Positions 5,394-28,167 of a stretch of DNA of 32,980 nucleotides are shown here, piece by piece. The stretch spans positions 1 through 32,980 of the forward strand of contig JARGPD010000010.1 in the NCBI GenBank assembly GCA_029212845.1, given 5' to 3'. Within the stretch, counting starts at the first letter, position 1; each line of letters starts with the position of its first letter. The notes beneath the pieces were generated by a model. That model made no database searches. It had not been told where the DNA came from and saw only the letters and a list, made by a program, of their open reading frames with translations. A program made the position numbers and the translations under genes. This stretch comes from Planctomycetota bacterium (GTDB lineage: Bacteria > Planctomycetota > UBA1135 > GCA-002686595).

Positions 5394-6770
5394 GATCGCG
5401 AGACCATGGACATCGTGATCATTGGCTCGGGCGAGGTGGGTCACCACCTCGCGGATGTGCTCTCCAAGGGCCAGCACCGGGTCAGTGTGATCGACAAGGA
5501 TCCCGAGCGGATTCGTGAGCTGCAGGAGTCCCTCGACGTGCAGGCGGTGCCTGGCGACGCCACCGTCGCCGAGGCCTTGACCCTCGCAGGCGTGCCGAAG
5601 GCCGACATCGTCGTGGCCGCCACGGACAACGACCTGGTCAACATGATGGCCTGCATCCTGTCCAAGAAGCTGGGCGCCAAGCGCGTGATCCTGCGCATCA
5701 AGGACACGGCGCGGGTCGACGGCTTCCGCTTCTTCTACAAGGGGGCGCTCGGCTACGACGTGCTCTTCTCGACCGAGGAGCTGGCTGCCGAGGCCGTGCT
5801 GCGCACGGTCGCGACCAACCACGCCCTCGAGGTCGAGACCTTCGCCGGCGGCCAGGTGCAGCTGCGCCGGCTGCGGGTCGGCCCTGACAGCGAGCTGCTC
5901 GGCCGCCCGCTGAGCACCCTGCGCCTGCCCGCGGGCGTGATGCTGGTGGCGACGATCCGCAAGAACGTCGTCGCGGTGCCGGGCGGCAGCTTCGTGCTGG
6001 AGTCCAGCGACCACGTCTACGTCGTTGGCAAGCGCGACAACCTGGACGAGTTCGAGGCCCTGGCCGGCGAGCCGGTCAAGGTCCGCCGCAAGGTGGTGAT
6101 CGTCGGCGGCGGTTCGGTGGGCGTCACCATCGCCGAGCGCCTCGACGAGCTGCCGGGCATCTCCGTGCGGCTGTTCGAGCGCGACCCCGCGCGCGCCGAG
6201 AAGGTCGCCAAGCGCCTCTCCAGCCGCGTGCTCGTGCTGCAGGGCGACGCGACGGACCTTGACTTCCTGCTCGAGGAGCAGGTCGGTGAGGTGGAGGTCT
6301 TCATCGCCGCGACCAAGCGCGACGAGGACAACCTCATCGCCTGCCAGCTGGCCAAGAGCCAGGGCGTCGAGCGGACCGTGGCGCTGGTCAACAAGCGCTC
6401 GTACCGCAACGTCTACAACCTGATGAACATCGACGTGGCGGTCTCGCCACGGCTGCAGTGCGCCCAGCGCATCCTGCGCTTCGTGCGCTCGGGCTCGGTC
6501 TCGTCGATCGCGGTGATCGCCGACGGTCGCGCCGAGGTGCTCGAGCTCGAGGCGCACTTCGCTGGCGGCAAGAAGCAGCGCCGGGTCAAGAACCTCGGCC
6601 TGCCGGACGGCGCCAAGATCGGCGCGGTCGTGCGCACCGAGGACGTCTTCATCCCCAACGGCGAGAGCGTGATCGAGGACGGCGACCAGGTGATCCTGTT
6701 CAGCCTGCCCGAGGACATCCGCGAGGTCGAGCGCATCTTCCTGCAGGCCGACGCCCACGTCGCCGAATGA
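5391..6770 (+). CDS. trkA: Trk system potassium uptake protein TrkA
   Basis: Two Rossmann RCK_N modules (MDIVIIGSGEVGHHLADVLS..., KVVIVGGGSVGVTIAERL...) and RCK_C regions; start may be 5391 or 5406. Confidence 0.93.
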   Translation: MDRETMDIVIIGSGEVGHHLADVLSKGQHRVSVIDKDPERIRELQESLDVQAVPGDATVAEALTLAGVPKADIVVAATDNDLVNMMACILSKKLGAKRVILRIKDTARVDGFRFFYKGALGYDVLFSTEELAAEAVLRTVATNHALEVETFAGGQVQLRRLRVGPDSELLGRPLSTLRLPAGVMLVATIRKNVVAVPGGSFVLESSDHVYVVGKRDNLDEFEALAGEPVKVRRKVVIVGGGSVGVTIAERLDELPGISVRLFERDPARAEKVAKRLSSRVLVLQGDATDLDFLLEEQVGEVEVFIAATKRDEDNLIACQLAKSQGVERTVALVNKRSYRNVYNLMNIDVAVSPRLQCAQRILRFVRSGSVSSIAVIADGRAEVLELEAHFAGGKKQRRVKNLGLPDGAKIGAVVRTEDVFIPNGESVIEDGDQVILFSLPEDIREVERIFLQADAHVAE

Positions 6771-8533
6771 ACCTGCACGCGGTCCTGCACCTGCTCGGAA
6801 AGGTGCTCCTGCTGTTGGCCGTGTTCCTCCTGGTTCCGGCCGGGGTCGCGCTGGTGTGGGCCGAGCACGAGTCCTGGGCCGCCTGCCTGCGCTCGTCCCT
6901 GGTCGCCGGCGTCCTCGGCATCGGCCTGGTGCACCTGGTCTCGCGCCAGGACCTCGATCAGACCTCGGGCCGCATCCCCGGGGTGCTGGCCTTGGCGCGC
7001 AACCGCCGCATCCTGGCGGTGACCGGCGTGCTGGCGCTCTTCCTGCTGCTGGTGCCTTGGGCCGTCAGCGACGCGGTCAGGCGCTTGGTGAGTCTCTTGC
7101 CCGAGCTAGGCTCGCTCACCCCCGAGGGCCTGCTGGTCGTGCTCGAGGCGCTGGTGCTGCTGCTGCTCGGTGCGGGCCTCGTGCACCAGCTGCGGCATGA
7201 CCGGCGCCGCGACGAGCTGGGCCAGAAGGAGTTCTACCGGCGCGAAGGCCTGGCCGTGGTGGGGCTGGCCTGGACCGTGGCGGGCCTGATCGGCGCCCTG
7301 CCGTTCCTGTTCTCCGGAGCCATCCCGGGCTTCATCGACGCCTTCTTCGAGTCGGTCTCCGGCTTCACGACCACCGGCTCGACGATCCTCTCGGCCGAGG
7401 GCATCGACGGCCTGTCCCGCTCGATCGCCTTCTGGCGCTCGTTCACCCATTGGCTCGGCGGCATCGGCATCGTGCTGGTGTTCGTCGTGCTGTTCCCCGC
7501 CGGCGGCCGCAGCCTGTTCCGCTCCGAGGTGCCCGGCGTCTCGCGCGAGGCCGTGCGCCAGCGCGTGCGCGACAGCGGCATGGGCCTCTTGCGCGTGTAC
7601 ATCAGCCTGACCGTGCTGCAGATCGTGCTGTACATGGTCGTCGGGCTCGACCTGTACGAGTCGGCCGTGCACGCCTTCGGCACCCTGGCGACGGGTGGCT
7701 TCTCGACCCACTCCGAGAGCATGGCCTACTTCCGCTCGCCGATGGTCGAGGGCGTGACGATCGTGTTCATGTTCCTGGCGGGCATCAACTTCGCGGTCTA
7801 CGACACGACCCTGCGCCTCGGACCCAAGCAAGGCTGGGCGATGGCCTGGCGCTCGAGCGAGGTGCGCCTCTATACCGGCGTGATCGTCGGGTCGGCGGCG
7901 GTGATCGCGCTGGTGCTGTGGTTCTGGGGTGGCTCGAACGGCGCCGTTGGGTCGGAGCTGCCGGACTACTCGCGCCTCAGCACGGCGGTGCGTGACTCCA
8001 GCTTCGTGGTCGTCAGCGTGCAGACCAGCACCGGGTTCGGCACCGCCGACTTCGACCAGTGGCCCGAGTTCACGCGCATGCTCCTGATGGGCCTGGCGTT
8101 CATCGGGGCCTGTGCGGGCTCGACGGGCGGCGGCCTGAAGGTGGTGCGCTTCATGGTGCTCGCCAAGGCCAGCCTGCGCAGCTTTCAGGTCTTCGCACGC
8201 CCGCGGGCCAAGCTGTTCGTGCGCATGAACGGCCAGCCCCTCGACGAGGAGCTCGTCTCGGGCATCATCGGCTACTTCGGCATGTGGTGCTTGATCGCGG
8301 GCGCGGCGACCCTGGCGCTGGCGGCCATGAACATCGACCCCGTCACCGCGACGACCAGCGTGCTAGCGACGCTCAACAACATCGGTCCCGGCCTCAGCAT
8401 GGTCGGCCCGACCGAGTCCTTCGGCTGGATGCCAGATCTCGGCAAGCTGCTCTGCAGCATCCTGATGGTGATCGGCCGGCTCGAGTTCTACGCCGTGGTC
8501 GTGCTCTTCCTGCCCCGCTTCTGGCGCATCTGA
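6767..8533 (+). CDS. trkH: Trk system potassium uptake protein TrkH
   Basis: 588 aa polytopic protein; SVSGFTTTGSTIL, HWLGGIGIVLVFVVLFP, LATGGFSTHSES, VQTSTGFGTADF, GGSTGGG-like ACAGSTGGGLKVVR selectivity loops; ATGA overlap with trkA. Confidence 0.94.
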   Translation: MNLHAVLHLLGKVLLLLAVFLLVPAGVALVWAEHESWAACLRSSLVAGVLGIGLVHLVSRQDLDQTSGRIPGVLALARNRRILAVTGVLALFLLLVPWAVSDAVRRLVSLLPELGSLTPEGLLVVLEALVLLLLGAGLVHQLRHDRRRDELGQKEFYRREGLAVVGLAWTVAGLIGALPFLFSGAIPGFIDAFFESVSGFTTTGSTILSAEGIDGLSRSIAFWRSFTHWLGGIGIVLVFVVLFPAGGRSLFRSEVPGVSREAVRQRVRDSGMGLLRVYISLTVLQIVLYMVVGLDLYESAVHAFGTLATGGFSTHSESMAYFRSPMVEGVTIVFMFLAGINFAVYDTTLRLGPKQGWAMAWRSSEVRLYTGVIVGSAAVIALVLWFWGGSNGAVGSELPDYSRLSTAVRDSSFVVVSVQTSTGFGTADFDQWPEFTRMLLMGLAFIGACAGSTGGGLKVVRFMVLAKASLRSFQVFARPRAKLFVRMNGQPLDEELVSGIIGYFGMWCLIAGAATLALAAMNIDPVTATTSVLATLNNIGPGLSMVGPTESFGWMPDLGKLLCSILMVIGRLEFYAVVVLFLPRFWRI

Positions 8534-8566: not shown

Positions 8567-9454
8567 ATGAAGCAGTGGTGGGGTGTTGGGCTCTCCGGCG
8601 TGGTCCTGGTTCTGGTCGCCGCGCTGCTCCTTCGCGCTTGGGCCTCCTCCGGGGGGGCGGTCCCCGCGGAGCACGAGGATGGCTAATGGGTGGCCTTCCT
8701 CGCCCACGAAGATGTCCTCGAAGGCGCAAGCTGGTCCGTCGCCGACAACGACCTCGTGCGCAAGCCCCACCAGACAGAAGGCTATCGCGGCTCGCTGCCG
8801 GTACTGTTCACCTTGGAGGGGGTCGAGTTGCGGGCCACTGGGTTCCTAGCATCCAAGGCGATGGAGCAGCGGGACCTCACAGCTCTCTCCAGGCTGATCG
8901 GCGGATGGAAGGGGGCGAAGGAGCTCTGTCCCATCGGTCTTGCTGTCGAAGCTGACCTCTGGAGCTTCTACTTCATGGGGCCCGCGAGGGCCGAGCCCGC
9001 GATCGAGCTCGTCCTCGGCGAGCTAGCCCAGGACTTCTTCGGGCAAGCGGGGACGGTCCGATCCAGGGAGGACCCCGACTGGTCCTTCCACGTCGAGCGC
9101 CTCGTGCCCAGCCGCGATGAGCAGCTCGCTCTGCTCGTGCAGTGGCAGCTGAGCGAGCTCACGCAGTAGGACTTGAAACCCTCTTCGAGTCGACCCGTCC
9201 GGTTCACCCTGAGGTTCAGCTCGAAGGAGTCCGCCGCGAGCTTCTCCGAGGCGGCCCTGGAGTAAGGCTACACGTAGGTCGGGGAGGGCGTCGGCTCCCT
9301 CACCAGCATGACGTTGAGGACCTGGGTCCAGCTCGAGCGCGAGGGCAGTGGGCAGGCCGATGAGTTGCTCGAGAGGCTCAGGCAGCTCGACGGCTTGGCG
9401 GAGACCTACGGCGGGATTTTCGATGGCCTGGATGCGTGGGGCGACTCCCACTGA
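8567..9454 (+). pseudogene. DUF695/RraB-like protein with N-terminal TM/signal segment, interrupted by four in-frame stops (TAA 8684, TAG 9167, TAA 9263, TAG 9275)
   Basis: Single frame from ATG 8567 (preceded by GAGAGG) to TGA 9452-9454; MKQWWGVGLSGVVLVLVAALLLRAWASSGGAVPAEHEDG*WVAFLAHEDVLEG...DPDWSFHVERLVPSRDEQLALLVQWQLSELTQ*DLKPSSSRPVRFTLRFSSKESAASFSEAALE*GYT*VGEG...LDGLAETYGGIFDGLDAWGDSH*; family call by memory of the RraB C-terminal pattern. Confidence 0.7.
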
Positions 9455-9487: not shown

Positions 9488-10132
9488 CTAGAGGATGTCC
9501 TCGCGGTACACCGCGCGGCTCTCCTCGGAGGCCTCGCGGCGGATCGCGACGAGGCGCCAGAGGCCCTCGCAGCCGACGGCGGTGATGTACTCGGTGCCGT
9601 CCTGGAAGCGCACGCGGCCGCTGACGAGTCCGATCAGCATCGGGCGGTCGGTGTCGGGGTCGACCCAGAAGACGCCGGCGCCGACCTGGGACTCGTCGCG
9701 CGGGAGCGGGCTCGCCGAGCGGAAGGCCAGGCCGTCGATGCGCGGGTCCTCGGTGGGGTAGAGGTCGATCTCCCAGGCGTCGCGACCCCGGCGGCCGCGG
9801 GCATAGACGTTGTCGTCGGGGCCCGGCCGCAGGAAGGCGATGTCGACCTGGGGCAGGTAGATCTCACCTTGGGCGAGGTACAAGCCGTCGCCGATCGGCT
9901 CGATGATCGAAGCCTCGATGCTGGGACCGTCGCCGTACCAGACGGTCATGTCGACCTCGCCCGAGGTGGCGGTGCTGCCCAGGAACACCACGCCGTGCTC
10001 GGTCGAGACACCGAGCTCGGTGCCGCCGGCGGTGTGGACCGTGACCGTCGGGTCCTGCACGTTGCGCGTGACGACACAGGAGCCGAGCAGGCAGAGGAGT
10101 GGGGCCAGGAGGAGCGAGGAGCGGCGGGTCAT
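9488..10132 (-). CDS. Hypothetical lipoprotein
   Basis: 214 aa; signal peptide with lipobox LLCLLGSC. Confidence 0.75.
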   Translation of the reverse strand: MTRRSSLLLAPLLCLLGSCVVTRNVQDPTVTVHTAGGTELGVSTEHGVVFLGSTATSGEVDMTVWYGDGPSIEASIIEPIGDGLYLAQGEIYLPQVDIAFLRPGPDDNVYARGRRGRDAWEIDLYPTEDPRIDGLAFRSASPLPRDESQVGAGVFWVDPDTDRPMLIGLVSGRVRFQDGTEYITAVGCEGLWRLVAIRREASEESRAVYREDIL

Positions 10133-19209: not shown

Positions 19210-20814
19210 TCAGTTGACGCTGCCGGCGACGGCGTGGTCCTCGTCCTTCAGCTCGGTGACCAACGAGTTCGTCGTCAGCAGCAGGCCAGCGATCGACGCC
19301 GCGTTCTGCAGGCCGGCGCGGACCACCTTGGCGGGGTCGATGATGCCAGCCTTGAAGAAGTCGACGTACTCGAGGGCGAGGGAGTCGAAGCCCCAGCCTT
19401 CCTTCTTCTCGAGCACCATCTCGGCGATCACCGAGCCGTCCTCGCCCGCGTTCTCCGCGATCTGACGGATCGGAGCAGCGAGCGCGACCTCGAGGATCTT
19501 GATGCCGTGGCGCAGGTCACCCTTGACCTTGACGTCCTTGAGCACGGAGATGGCCCGCAGCAGGCAGGTGCCACCGCCACTGACGATGCCCTCCTGGATG
19601 GCCGCGCGGGTCGCGTTGAGGGCGTCCTCGACGAGGTCCTTCTTGGCCTTCATCTCGGACTCGGTGTCACCACCGACCTTGATGACGGCGACGCCGCCGG
19701 TCAGCTTCGCGAGGCGCTCCTCGAGCTTCTCCTTGTCGTAGTTCGACTTGGTCGAGTCGATCTGCGAGCGGATCTGGGCGCAGCGCGAGTTGACGTTCTT
19801 CTTGGCGCCGGCGCCGGAGACGATCGTCGTGGTGTCCTTGTCGATGCGGATGTGCTTGGCCTGGCCGAGCTGGGCCACCGTGACGTTCTCGAGGGTCAGC
19901 CCGAGGTCCTCGGTGATCGCCTGGCCACCGGTGACACAAGCGATGTCGCCGAGGTACGCCTTGCGACGGTCACCGAAGCCGGGCGCCTTGACGGCGCAGA
20001 CGTTCAGGCCGCCACGCAGGCGGTTGATGACCAGCGTCGAGAGGGCTTCGCCGTCGATGTCCTCGGCGATGATCAGGAGCGGCCGGGAGGTGCTCATGAC
20101 CTTCTCGAGGATCGGGACGAGCGCGCGCGCCGAGCTGATCTTCTGGTCACAGATCAGGATGTAGGCGTCGTTCAGCTCCGCGATCAGCTTGGCCGGATCG
20201 GTGGAGAAGTAGGGCGACACGTAGCCCTTGTCGAACTGCATGCCCTCGACCACCTCGAGCACGGTCTCGCGGGCCGAGTTCTCCTCGATGGTGATCACGC
20301 CCTCGTCGCCGACGCGGTCGAAGGCCTCGGCGAGCAGGTCGCCGATCGCCTGGTCGTTGTTGGCGGAGATGGCCGCGATGGCTGCCTTCTGGGCGCGGTT
20401 CTTCACCGGGCGCGCGGTCTCGGCGATGTGCTTGACCACGGCCTCGACACCCTTGTCGATGCCGTTGCGCAGGGCGACGGGGTTGACGCCGGTGGCGAGG
20501 TGCTTGAGGCCCTCGGAGTAGATCGCCGAAGCCAGGACCGTGGCCGACGTGGTGCCGTCACCGGCGACGTCGTTGGTCTTCTTGGCGGCCTCGAGCACGA
20601 GCTTGGCGCCCATGTTCTCGAAGGGATCTTCGAGGTCGATCTCCTTGGCGACGCTGACGCCGTCCTTGGTCACGGCGGGAGCGCCGAAGCTCTTGGAGAG
20701 GATCACGTTGCGGCCAGCGGGACCCATGGTCACGCGGACGGTCTTGGCGAGCTTCTCGATGCCAGCCTGCATCTTTTGGCGGGCGTTGTCGTCGAAGAGG
20801 ATTTGCTTGGACAT
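19210..20814 (-). CDS. groEL: Chaperonin GroEL (paralog lacking GGM tail)
   Basis: 534 aa MSKQILFDDNARQKMQAGIEKLAKTVRVTMGPAGRNVI...VAGDGTTSATVLA...; ends KDEDHAVAGSVN. Confidence 0.96.
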   Translation of the reverse strand: MSKQILFDDNARQKMQAGIEKLAKTVRVTMGPAGRNVILSKSFGAPAVTKDGVSVAKEIDLEDPFENMGAKLVLEAAKKTNDVAGDGTTSATVLASAIYSEGLKHLATGVNPVALRNGIDKGVEAVVKHIAETARPVKNRAQKAAIAAISANNDQAIGDLLAEAFDRVGDEGVITIEENSARETVLEVVEGMQFDKGYVSPYFSTDPAKLIAELNDAYILICDQKISSARALVPILEKVMSTSRPLLIIAEDIDGEALSTLVINRLRGGLNVCAVKAPGFGDRRKAYLGDIACVTGGQAITEDLGLTLENVTVAQLGQAKHIRIDKDTTTIVSGAGAKKNVNSRCAQIRSQIDSTKSNYDKEKLEERLAKLTGGVAVIKVGGDTESEMKAKKDLVEDALNATRAAIQEGIVSGGGTCLLRAISVLKDVKVKGDLRHGIKILEVALAAPIRQIAENAGEDGSVIAEMVLEKKEGWGFDSLALEYVDFFKAGIIDPAKVVRAGLQNAASIAGLLLTTNSLVTELKDEDHAVAGSVN

Positions 20815-20884
20815 TGGGATTGGTGGGTTGTGCGTTGTGGTTGTTCGAGGGGAAGAGGAGGGGGAGGGGAGTGGTGGGTCCGGG

Positions 20885-22576
<1,692 letters not shown>

Positions 22577-23018: not shown

Positions 23019-23735
23019 ATGGCTCAGGACCCCTCGCATCCCGACGACCTCGAGCGCCTCTTCTCGGGCGCTCTGCAGTTCGAGCTCGATCGAGCTGCGG
23101 GCGGGCCCCACTCGCTTCCGCGATCGAAGCGGCGCCTGCGCGGCGCCGCCCTGCTGCAGGGCGATTCGCCGAGGCGCATCATGCAGGGACTCATGGACGG
23201 GGATCCCCTGGACATGGACGGTCGCTGTGGGCGGCGCATGGAGCACCAGGCGCTCTTGATGGACAGGGCGCGCGTTCGTTGGCGCTCGGTCAGCTACCTG
23301 GCCTACCTCGCGGCGCGCGACGGCTACCGCGGCAACCCGCCCCTGGATCAGTTCATCGAGCGCGCGATCGACCAAGCCTTGGAGTCTTTGATCGAGGAGG
23401 ACTGGGAGGCTGATCGCTCCGACGCGCCGATCGACCCGGAGCTCGAGCAGTATGCCTCGATCGCCCTCGAGGCCGACCTCGACCCGCGCCATGCCCGGCG
23501 CGTGACCCTGGAGTTCAACTTGCATCCGCTGCGCCTGCGGCGTCCGCTCTTTGCGGTGCTCGTAGCCGGTCGTGGCTTCGCCGAGGTCGCCGAGGCTTCG
23601 GGCCTGGCCACCGCCGAGCTCGAGCGCGAGCTGCGCACGACGCTGACCCGCATGCTGCGCTTCAACAACCCAGGTGAGGGGCTCGACGAGAGCCTCGACC
23701 AGGCCATGGACGACCTACTGGGGAAGGACTCATGA
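23019..23735 (+). CDS. Hypothetical protein, possibly a divergent sigma-70-like factor
   Basis: 238 aa; C-terminal [42 protein letters not shown] resembles sigma region 4. Confidence 0.5.
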
Positions 23736-24637
23736 GCACCCTAGCCATGCACCCCGACCTGCGCGGCGTCCTCGAAGACATCGCCGCCCAGCCCGAGCAG
23801 CGCCTCTTCGCCGGCACCTACTTCCGCCGCATGCACGAGGCCTTTCTTGGTGAGGACGCCACCGTCGGCATCGCCCAGAGCGGCCTCTCCAGCGCCGAGC
23901 GCCACCTCGTCGCCATGCACCGCCGCGAACTCAGCAGCGTACTCTTGGAGGCGTTCTACTCGAACTTCTTCAGTCCTGGAGGTCCATCTGGTCTGCTGCA
24001 ACCTGTTGAGCAGCCCATGTCCCGATCCGATTGGGAGGAGACTGCCCGGTTCGCTAGGGATACTTCACCGAGCGATGCCTTTGCTGACGGTGTAGGGCCC
24101 TGGCTGCATCGACTCCTCGACGGCAAGGCTCCTATTGGGATGGCAGGGTACAGTGGGATGCTGGCTGCTTCCTTGCGGCTGGCTTCTTCGAGCTATGCAC
24201 AGCTTTATTCAGGCATCGTCTATGGGCGCTACGACGCGGATCGAGCAGCGCTCGGCACTTGGGCCTCACTTGTCCGCAGATCTCCTGCAGTTGTAAAGCT
24301 CTCTGCACTTCGCTACTCGCGGGACGTACATGCTGGTCGCGGGGACCTCCTCGCCGCTCGGGCATGCCAAGATCGGCTGGTTGGAGCCGCCCTACGATCG
24401 GGAGATCCAGGTCTCATCGCTGAGGAACTCGTGAGCGGCGCCCTCTTGCAAAGGATTCACCGACTTCCGCATCTCTCCCTCTTGCCCCAGGTCCCCAGCA
24501 ATGAGGTGCATGAGGCGTGCTACACCCGCCTGAGGGACTTGCTCCCCATGGTGCTTGAGCACCACGCCGGAGACGTCTCGCTTTGCGAAGAGCTTGACGG
24601 TTTGGTCGATTCCGACATCTCATGGAGTTCATCTTGA
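23732..24637 (+). CDS. Hypothetical protein
   Basis: 301 aa intact ORF; ATGA overlap with preceding gene; codon usage changes after about codon 80. Confidence 0.7.
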
Positions 24638-24930: not shown

Positions 24931-27900
24931 ATGAGGACCAACTCGCTCCTCATGGCCGTGGTTGCCATGGTCGTACTGGTCGCCGTAGGGTTCGTCGTGT
25001 CCCTTCGCCAAAGTGCAGGCCAAGGCACTTCTCCAGCCCCAAGTCACAACCCGCCCCACTCGATCGAGGAGGGTGCCGACGGCCCGGTGGTCACTGAGGC
25101 CGATGCCGGTGCCACACCGGAGAGTCCCGATTGGAGTGGGGGAAGGAACTCCGTCGAGGGACTGCACCGAGTCTTTGGTGTTGTTCTCGATTCAATGGGT
25201 GAGCCCTTGCCAGGCGCGGAGGTCTCGTGGACCCCTGAGACGCTCAAGATGCCAGGATCTCCGACCTGTATTGGAACCTGGAGGCAGGTGGTGGAAGAGT
25301 CGGTCTACGCACGAGCGGATGCATCTGGCGACTTCCAGCTCACGCTCCAACCTGAGGACGGTCGGGGGGTCCTGTGGGTGACCTCTCCAGGAATGTTGTC
25401 GACCTTCCAGTGGTTGGACCCTGGCTTCGAGGACGATTTGGTCTTCGAGTTGGCCCCAGCTACAACGCTGCACGGACAGGTAAGCCGATCTGATGCTGGA
25501 CGGCTCGATAGCTGCCTGATCATCCAGCGCGGGTCCAGCCAAGATTCCGGATCCTGGGTAGGTCTTGACTCGACCGACCGAGCGCTGCACCTGTTCGTCC
25601 GTGCGCACGCGGTCCCAGAAGGGTCGGTGGGCTCAGCAGTCGTGGCAATGTCATGCACCCCAGAGCCGACCTTGGCTTGGGCTGAGCAAGGCGAGCTGAG
25701 GTCAGCCCGTCGGTATACCGACGATGGAGAACCAGTCCAGTTCGAACTCTCACCAACGTTTCGCCTGGAGGCATCGGTTGAAGATGTCAGCGCGCTCGAG
25801 CATGGCCATCCTCGGGTCGTCGTGAGCAGCGTTGAACCGGCACGTTCCTTGGTAACCCTGGACATCCTTCAGGACGGCAAGGGGACGGCGTCCGTCCCAC
25901 TGCTTTCTGGCGGCTTCTTTCAAGCGACTCTCGTAGGGGCAGGCGTGGCACCCGAGGTGAGGCGCTTCGAATCACCGGGGATTGGGCAAGTCGTTAAGGT
26001 CGCTTTCGAGGGGCACAACGGCGAGGTGCTGCCCGTGCGTTTCGTTGGGAAGAACGGAACTGGAATCGAAGGTGTTAGCGTTTCCAGTACATGGCAGGAG
26101 TCTGACGGTAGCTTCGCCGTAACCTCGGTCCTCGCTCGAACGGACTCGGTTGGTATAGCTGAAGTTGCCCTTCCTCGGGCAAGCGTCTCTTGGATCGGAC
26201 AGGATCACCCGGGCTACCAGTCAGGCTTTGTGGGCCCCCTTGAGGTTGATGCTCTCCCAAGGACGGAGGATGACTCGCTCCTGCCCTACGAGGTGGTTCT
26301 GGAACCTCTGGTGGAGTTGACGGGGCGAGTGAGAGCGAGTGGCGAGGACCTGCTGGAGTACACACTCTTCGGATGGCCCGGTGGAGCTGCCGCGTCGGAG
26401 CAAGAACAGCTGGATTACGACATCGATCCCAAGGGGGTCTTCCGTTTGATGGTCCCTGATTCGCCCATCAACCTTGCAGCTTGGGCTGAGGGATACGGAC
26501 AGAGCCGTTCCGTCTGGGTCGATGCTGGGAGCGCGGCGGAAGACCAGATCGTGATCGATCTTCCCGATGCTCTATTCGGCAGGGGGAGGGTGCTCGACGA
26601 GCGGACACGCAAGCCAGTGGCTGGCGCAAGCATTGAGGTGCACATTACTGATTTCGGCGTGGCCTACACGAGGGCACCGGTCGAGCTGGTGACCAGCGAA
26701 GCTGGAACATTCGAGGCCCTGGCCTTCTCCCCTGCAGAAACCGCCAACATCACGGTTGTCGCGGAAGGGTACGCCAAGACGGGGAGCGTGGCGCGTTTCG
26801 AATCTGACGGTACCTCCAACTTCGTGGACTTCGGAGATGTACTCCTGGCCCAAGACAGCTGGGCGGAGATCGAGGTTGTGGGCTTGAGACTTGATGAGGA
26901 AGCTTGGATCGAGATCGACTCTTCGGGCGAGTGGTTACAACTCCAGCGGAGGGGCGAGCTGCTCATCCACCGAGAGTCAGGCATGCACGCTGGCCGATTT
27001 CCGTTCCTTGTCTCCAACGGGAGCGAGACCTATCGGGAGCAGAGGGTCGAGTACTTGACAGGTCGAGGCCCTTGGACCTTGCGCCTAGAAGTGCACGGCG
27101 GGGCTGGCCTCGAAGTCAACCTAGGTCAGCTTGGTTCCGACTGTGTGGGTGGATTCATCCGCGTCTACTTAGGGAGTGCGTTCGAGACTGTCGAGCGGGA
27201 GTGCATCCTACAAGCAGAGCACCTAGAAGCTGGTCTCGTACGGATCGACGGCATCCAGCCAGGCCCAGCGGTTCTGGTATTGCACGAGCCTGTCAATGGA
27301 GTGGCCATCGCCGGAGCATCCTTAGAAGTCTTGCCCGGCACTCACAATCAGGTCAGCCTGAAGCCATGCGATCGAAACTTGAAGGTCGAAGTGGTCGACC
27401 CAGCGGGGCAGCCGATTCCGGGGACAGTGGTTGGTGTTGGCCCTGCGATCGCTCCAGGTCATTACTCCTACTTCGGCTACGCGGACAGTTCAGGGGTCGC
27501 TGACCTAGGACCGGTACCATTCGAATCGGGTGTGCTTCGGGCTCTGAGGCCGGACTCGGCTCTCTTGGCAGGCGTTCCGATTCAAGTCCCCGAGAACGGA
27601 GATCCGATTCAGGTGATCTTTGATGTGGACCACTACGTGAATCTACTGGTCCAGGATCGAGGCGTTCCCTTGGCTGGGGTCTCGATGCAGACTGCGATCG
27701 CCGCCATGGACACAGCGGCATCAATGAGGTTCTCTGATGACCAGGGCAACGTGCTCATTGGCCCCGTCAGCGACGTTGAGTTCGAGTGTCGGCCGATGGC
27801 GTCCTGGGTCTGGACCGAGTCGCGTATGGTGCATGCGGTCGAGGAGGGTGCCGAGCCGGTGGTGATCGAGTTCCGACGGGTAGGGGACCTCGCTTTCGAG

Positions 27901-28167
27901 GTGCGCGACTCGGGCGGGATGCTGCTCGATGGGGTGGCGGTCGAGGTGCTCTCCGAGGAGTACGCCACCGACGTAGCCGGCTGGGTCGCGGCGGGTCGTG
28001 TCGAGGCCCCTTCCGCAGGGCTCGTCACGGATGAAGAGGGGCGGCTGCTCCTGTCCGGCCTGCCGAACGGCGCGTTCGCGTGGAGCGTGCCCGCGCTTGG
28101 GCTCGAGGGCAAGGTCGTCGTGCCACCCCTGGCCGAGGCCCTGGTCTTGGTCCGCCCTGGGAGCTGA
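24931..28167 (+). CDS. Large N-terminally anchored protein with carboxypeptidase-regulatory-like domains
   Basis: 1078 aa; TM segment LLMAVVAMVVLVAVGFVVSL; HRVFGVVLDSMGEPLPGAEVSW, GRGRVLDERTRKPVAGASIEV repeats. Confidence 0.8.
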   Translation: MRTNSLLMAVVAMVVLVAVGFVVSLRQSAGQGTSPAPSHNPPHSIEEGADGPVVTEADAGATPESPDWSGGRNSVEGLHRVFGVVLDSMGEPLPGAEVSWTPETLKMPGSPTCIGTWRQVVEESVYARADASGDFQLTLQPEDGRGVLWVTSPGMLSTFQWLDPGFEDDLVFELAPATTLHGQVSRSDAGRLDSCLIIQRGSSQDSGSWVGLDSTDRALHLFVRAHAVPEGSVGSAVVAMSCTPEPTLAWAEQGELRSARRYTDDGEPVQFELSPTFRLEASVEDVSALEHGHPRVVVSSVEPARSLVTLDILQDGKGTASVPLLSGGFFQATLVGAGVAPEVRRFESPGIGQVVKVAFEGHNGEVLPVRFVGKNGTGIEGVSVSSTWQESDGSFAVTSVLARTDSVGIAEVALPRASVSWIGQDHPGYQSGFVGPLEVDALPRTEDDSLLPYEVVLEPLVELTGRVRASGEDLLEYTLFGWPGGAAASEQEQLDYDIDPKGVFRLMVPDSPINLAAWAEGYGQSRSVWVDAGSAAEDQIVIDLPDALFGRGRVLDERTRKPVAGASIEVHITDFGVAYTRAPVELVTSEAGTFEALAFSPAETANITVVAEGYAKTGSVARFESDGTSNFVDFGDVLLAQDSWAEIEVVGLRLDEEAWIEIDSSGEWLQLQRRGELLIHRESGMHAGRFPFLVSNGSETYREQRVEYLTGRGPWTLRLEVHGGAGLEVNLGQLGSDCVGGFIRVYLGSAFETVERECILQAEHLEAGLVRIDGIQPGPAVLVLHEPVNGVAIAGASLEVLPGTHNQVSLKPCDRNLKVEVVDPAGQPIPGTVVGVGPAIAPGHYSYFGYADSSGVADLGPVPFESGVLRALRPDSALLAGVPIQVPENGDPIQVIFDVDHYVNLLVQDRGVPLAGVSMQTAIAAMDTAASMRFSDDQGNVLIGPVSDVEFECRPMASWVWTESRMVHAVEEGAEPVVIEFRRVGDLAFEVRDSGGMLLDGVAVEVLSEEYATDVAGWVAAGRVEAPSAGLVTDEEGRLLLSGLPNGAFAWSVPALGLEGKVVVPPLAEALVLVRPGS

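Follow-up and report, generated by a model that had tools for sequence, protein, structure and literature searches.

Does a reading frame that is interrupted by several stop codons represent a dead gene, or could it still give rise to a protein? The question is raised by a locus in a 32,980-nucleotide stretch of a planctomycete genome (the window), where a frame on the forward strand runs from ATG 8567 to the TGA at 9452 (8567–9454) and is interrupted by TAA 8684–8686, TAG 9167–9169, TAA 9263–9265, and TAG 9275–9277. The coordinates are exact, and all of these codons are in frame. An earlier note had described the locus as a DUF695/RraB-like gene with an N-terminal anchor, a DUF695-like middle, and an RraB-like end, carrying four stops and zero frameshifts, and had offered a very young pseudogene or context-specific readthrough as explanations. 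The analysis presented here favors, with a probability of roughly 0.87, a unitary pseudogene of a DUF695–RraB gene that was acquired, inactivated, and is decaying.

Homology Flanks the Internal Stop Codons

That one frame holds throughout the stretch proved uninformative. At the local base composition, 7.2 stops are expected by chance in a frame of 295 codons, and four or fewer occur with a probability of 0.16; over the same stretch, the other plus frames contain 9 and 3 stops (the latter in frame +2), and the minus frames contain 2, 5, and 8. Frame 0 gives the strongest coding signal in most sub-windows of 8567–9454. Since the stop counts carry no weight, it is homology that identifies this frame as a gene. 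More generally, few stops in a high-GC frame say little about whether it is a gene, and homology flanking the stops is what decides.

A homolog profile was built from 19 intact DUF695–RraB proteins of the same phylum, and it matches the window frame over profile positions 52–243 with an E-value of about 3e-25. A frameshift-aware alignment of the DNA to this profile follows a single frame from 8852 to 9425 (profile positions 54–241) across TAG 9167, TAA 9263, and TAG 9275, with zero frameshifts at penalties of 6–12 bits; frameshifts appear only at a penalty of 4 bits, mostly as compensating pairs around the stops. When the parts before and after TAG 9167 are each scored alone, they reach 33.0 and 33.9 bits, compared to 2.6 bits or less in 200 shuffles, and homology thus lies on both sides of the disabling mutations at one locus. 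Judged by homology, the sequence on either side of TAG 9167 is one former gene.

The RraB-like end is well founded. With X placed at the stops, the RraB family (PF06877) matches residues 200–287 (E = 1.1e-8, 36 bits), passing the Pfam gathering cut-off of 23.3, and the domain remnant at 9161–9427 has three stops across it. The earlier note had made its proposal depend on RraB similarity 3′ of TAG 9167, and this similarity is present, the part beyond that stop scoring 33.9 bits alone against the homolog profile. The DUF695-like middle stood only in part: the DUF695 HMM (PF05117) yields no hit at E up to 10 for the entire frame or at E up to 1 for the 5′ fragment, leaving the frame short of the gathering cut-off, whereas in intact relatives it finds matches with E-values of 3e-8 to 9e-34, yet the frame does align with the relatives' DUF695 part from profile position 52.

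Intact proteins that combine DUF695 and RraB (PF05117 + PF06877) are about 250 amino acids long, as in genomes G004, G037, and G445 (L089). The window copy shares with them the order of the parts, the DPxW and RPV motifs, and the G-F/Y and DG near the C-terminus, all in the one-frame alignment over positions 52–243. In contrast to them, it is interrupted by three stops within the aligned part, is missing the conserved GD, H, and W, and has no recognizable first 50 residues but an unmatched hydrophobic leader.

All 19 of the related DUF695–RraB proteins are uninterrupted, with sense codons at the positions disabled in the window, and none of these homologs is an ortholog at the window site. The family is sparsely distributed, and a pseudogene of it is an ordinary finding, by itself of little importance. 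A survey of 60 relatives gave one significant homolog, an intact protein of G037 with the parts in the same order and 27% identity, and eight were found in 391 other genomes of the phylum, and RraB occurs in 25 of 154 genomes of the class. Neither the GTDB species genomes nor viral contigs yielded a close protein relative, and a search of the relatives, the GTDB species genomes, and other genomes of the phylum found no congeneric sequence. RraB occurs once in the host genome; a candidate second copy, a 28-bp match on contig C191, was rejected as it falls in unrelated coding sequence.

RraB of Escherichia coli is an inhibitor of RNase E. By sequence, PF06877 is common to that protein and the window frame, but the match to the NCBIfam RraB equivalog is far under its cut-off, even for an intact relative, and regulation of RNase E is not claimed for the window gene or its relatives. 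DUF695 is not mentioned in the literature searched. As a separate observation, locus L028 (1041–1319; genome G151) encodes a small RraB protein with an N-terminal membrane segment and one TGA inside, its counterparts (L023, L025) being intact in two genomes of the same genus; this is perhaps a second decaying gene of the RraB family.

The 5′ Part and the Original Start

The proposed N-terminal anchor, which includes TAA 8684, did not hold up as part of the family. The first 285 bases (8567–8851) show no homology to it, scoring 10.1 bits, within the 8.4–12.1 of shuffled controls. The hydrophobic leader (8567–8683) has weak coding support, falling at the 5.5th percentile of real gene windows, the 40th of N-terminal windows, and the 87th of wrong-frame windows. 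One relative (L092) has an in-frame hydrophobic segment upstream of its W, and given this example the leader may be a real membrane anchor.

Most family members have a conserved W only a few residues after their start (MSxNW, MSADGNW, MGLGW), and this region corresponds to the neighborhood of 8679–8693. A candidate original start is found there on the forward strand, an ATG at 8679 that reads M-A-N-G-W in frame +1 (8679–8693) and has GGAG seven bases upstream. If translation once began at this ATG, as its resemblance to the relatives' N-termini makes possible, TAA 8684 would not count as nonsense, and a single frameshift would be required shortly downstream. Because this codon falls in a 5′ part with no detectable homology, close to where the relatives start, it may coincide with the original start or precede it. 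The other three stops are treated as secure. The description of four stops and zero frameshifts is therefore firm only for three stops between 8852 and 9425, where no frameshift is favored, and does not extend to the fourth.

Conserved Residues and Codon Bias Are Degraded

In a jackknife of the profile, the window frame scores 77 bits, the lowest of the set, and intact members score 131–284. It keeps 23 of 40 conserved columns (27–39 in intact members); among the residues missing are the GD pair, the H of RPxxH, and the C-terminal W of YDGW. The poorest score in the family is what decay would predict, and it could in part stem from a divergent subfamily instead. The GC content at third codon positions (GC3) is 0.86, a value that ranks at the 12th percentile among 419 host genes, whose median is 0.94. 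With motifs lost, a score far under that of every intact relative, and this weakened codon bias, the suggestion that the pseudogene is very young is not supported.

These data also bear on whether part of the gene might survive. From GTG 8690, a possible start, to TAG 9167, an uninterrupted frame of 159 codons scores 33 bits against the family profile and might still encode a working, truncated DUF695-like protein, only the RraB part being dead. Its codon bias, however, is not stronger than in the dead 3′ part (GC3 of 0.84 and 0.89, respectively), it has no match to the DUF695 HMM, and many conserved residues are gone, making a functional 5′ piece unlikely. The two halves are alike in GC3, and hence neither appears preferentially kept.

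The source is a fragmented metagenome-assembled genome (263 contigs, 88% complete), which raises the concern that the gene is in fact intact and that its stops come from faulty sequencing or assembly, or reflect chimeric strain variants. Several such errors within 0.9 kb are improbable because none of the 23 other genes in the 33-kb window is interrupted by a stop, and errors would leave the general loss of conserved residues unexplained; artifactual stops are considered very improbable. The pseudogene reading accounts for one-frame homology across three stops, for the intact relatives, and for the lost residues.

Nonsense without Frameshifts Is Mildly Unusual

The earlier note had stressed that pure nonsense with a preserved frame is unusual. 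In bacteria, ratios of indels to substitutions range from 0.10 to 0.36 (PMC4978911, Table 1). With 85% of indels assumed to shift the frame, the probability that all disabling hits are nonsense and none is a frameshift is 0.045 for three of three and 0.016 for four of four at a ratio of 0.1, and 0.019 and 0.005, respectively, at a ratio of 0.15; higher ratios make the outcome rarer still. Zero frameshifts with three to four nonsense hits is therefore mildly unusual rather than remarkable, at P of about 0.005–0.05, values that do not allow for the frame having been picked for this property. Small compensating indels or one early frameshift may also be hidden. About 3–5% of random substitutions in the frame give a stop, and three to four nonsense hits would correspond to an inferred total of some 65–120 substitutions.

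In its in-frame stops, lost conserved residues, weakened codon bias, and patchy presence, the locus resembles ordinary bacterial unitary pseudogenes. It differs from them in having nonsense mutations only, with frameshifts not favored, a mildly less common pattern.

No Sign of Stop-Codon Reassignment or Suppression

The alternative to decay is that the gene is intact and that context-specific readthrough of TAA and TAG yields the full protein. Such a mechanism would fit the kept frame, with no frameshift favored over 8852–9425, and a published report describes bacterial in-frame stops that appear to be under purifying selection (PMC7918605). The host shows none of the hallmarks of stop reassignment or suppression, whether a suppressor tRNA, loss of a release factor, or stops in conserved genes. 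Typing with ARAGORN at the loci of 38 tRNA matches in the 88% complete assembly gave 35 amino-acid/anticodon types, all ordinary, along with one unassigned call and one tRNA cut by a contig end; no suppressor was among the tRNAs typed, and one in the genome is unlikely. RF1 is present, and internal stops are absent from the 56 ABC_tran matches of the genome and from the 23 window genes, for which TGA, TAG, and TAA all serve as terminal stops. Genome-wide reassignment, which the earlier note had considered unlikely from gene ends, is rejected on these grounds.

Context-specific readthrough fares no better. Three or four successive events would multiply to a negligible yield, and other conserved residues of the family are lost. 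Moreover, relatives show no conserved residue at the stop columns: TAG 9167 aligns with a variable position (occupied by H, R, A, N, E, or K) directly before the family GD motif, TAA 9263 with a variable residue preceding the conserved G-F/Y, and TAG 9275 with a variable column. Production of the full protein from an intact gene in this way is judged exceedingly improbable, and hardly any probability attaches to the specific version in which a membrane-anchored DUF695–RraB protein, expressed at a very low level by repeated readthrough of TAA and TAG, is under selection. A scan of 0.94 Mb of the host genome for coding frames that cross stops returned 43 sites (35 single sites and four pairs), many of which may be ordinary same-frame neighbors; as it also missed the target itself, it carries no evidential weight.

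Genomic Site and Inferred History

The pseudogene lies between two intact genes whose synteny is conserved, trkH on the left (6767–8533, forward strand) and, convergent to it, a gene for a small secreted protein or lipoprotein on the right (9488–10132, reverse strand). The latter has no Pfam match and is present in 70 of 81 genomes of the taxonomic family; its named relatives come from planctomycetes, Pla86 and Poly30 among them. The closest genomes are G061 and G036; their trkH is 73% and 72% identical and their lipoprotein gene 65% and 70% identical, respectively, and the convergent genes are separated by 190 and 157 bp, with no remnant resembling the frame in between. No ortholog was found at this site in these two genomes or in nine longer or selected gaps.

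A gain in the host lineage is preferred over loss in the relatives, which may have occurred instead, because the gene is missing at this site from the two closest genomes and the family is patchy. In the simplest history, a DUF695–RraB gene would have been gained at the convergent trkH/lipoprotein-gene junction and then inactivated by nonsense mutation, at least three in-frame stops lying inside the homologous sequence. Drift under relaxed constraint would have followed, as the lost conserved residues and the weakened codon bias suggest, and full-length protein is probably no longer made.

Both genes share a contig in 32 genomes of the family; they lie no more than 329 bp apart in 27 of these and 0.8–9.9 kb apart in five (L228, L229, L230, L231, and L236), where the extra sequence differs; the longer gaps examined contain unrelated open frames. 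The junction is thus a place where this planctomycete family occasionally carries differing extra sequence.

Two further features of the window were observed. Two adjacent genes, at 23732–24637 (no Pfam match) and 24931–28167 (CarboxypepD_reg domains), are compositionally foreign, with a GC3 of about 0.68 compared to a genome median near 0.94. A tandem groEL pair (19210–20820 and 20885–22570) adjoins dnaJ and grpE, and only the second copy has a Gly-Met-rich tail.
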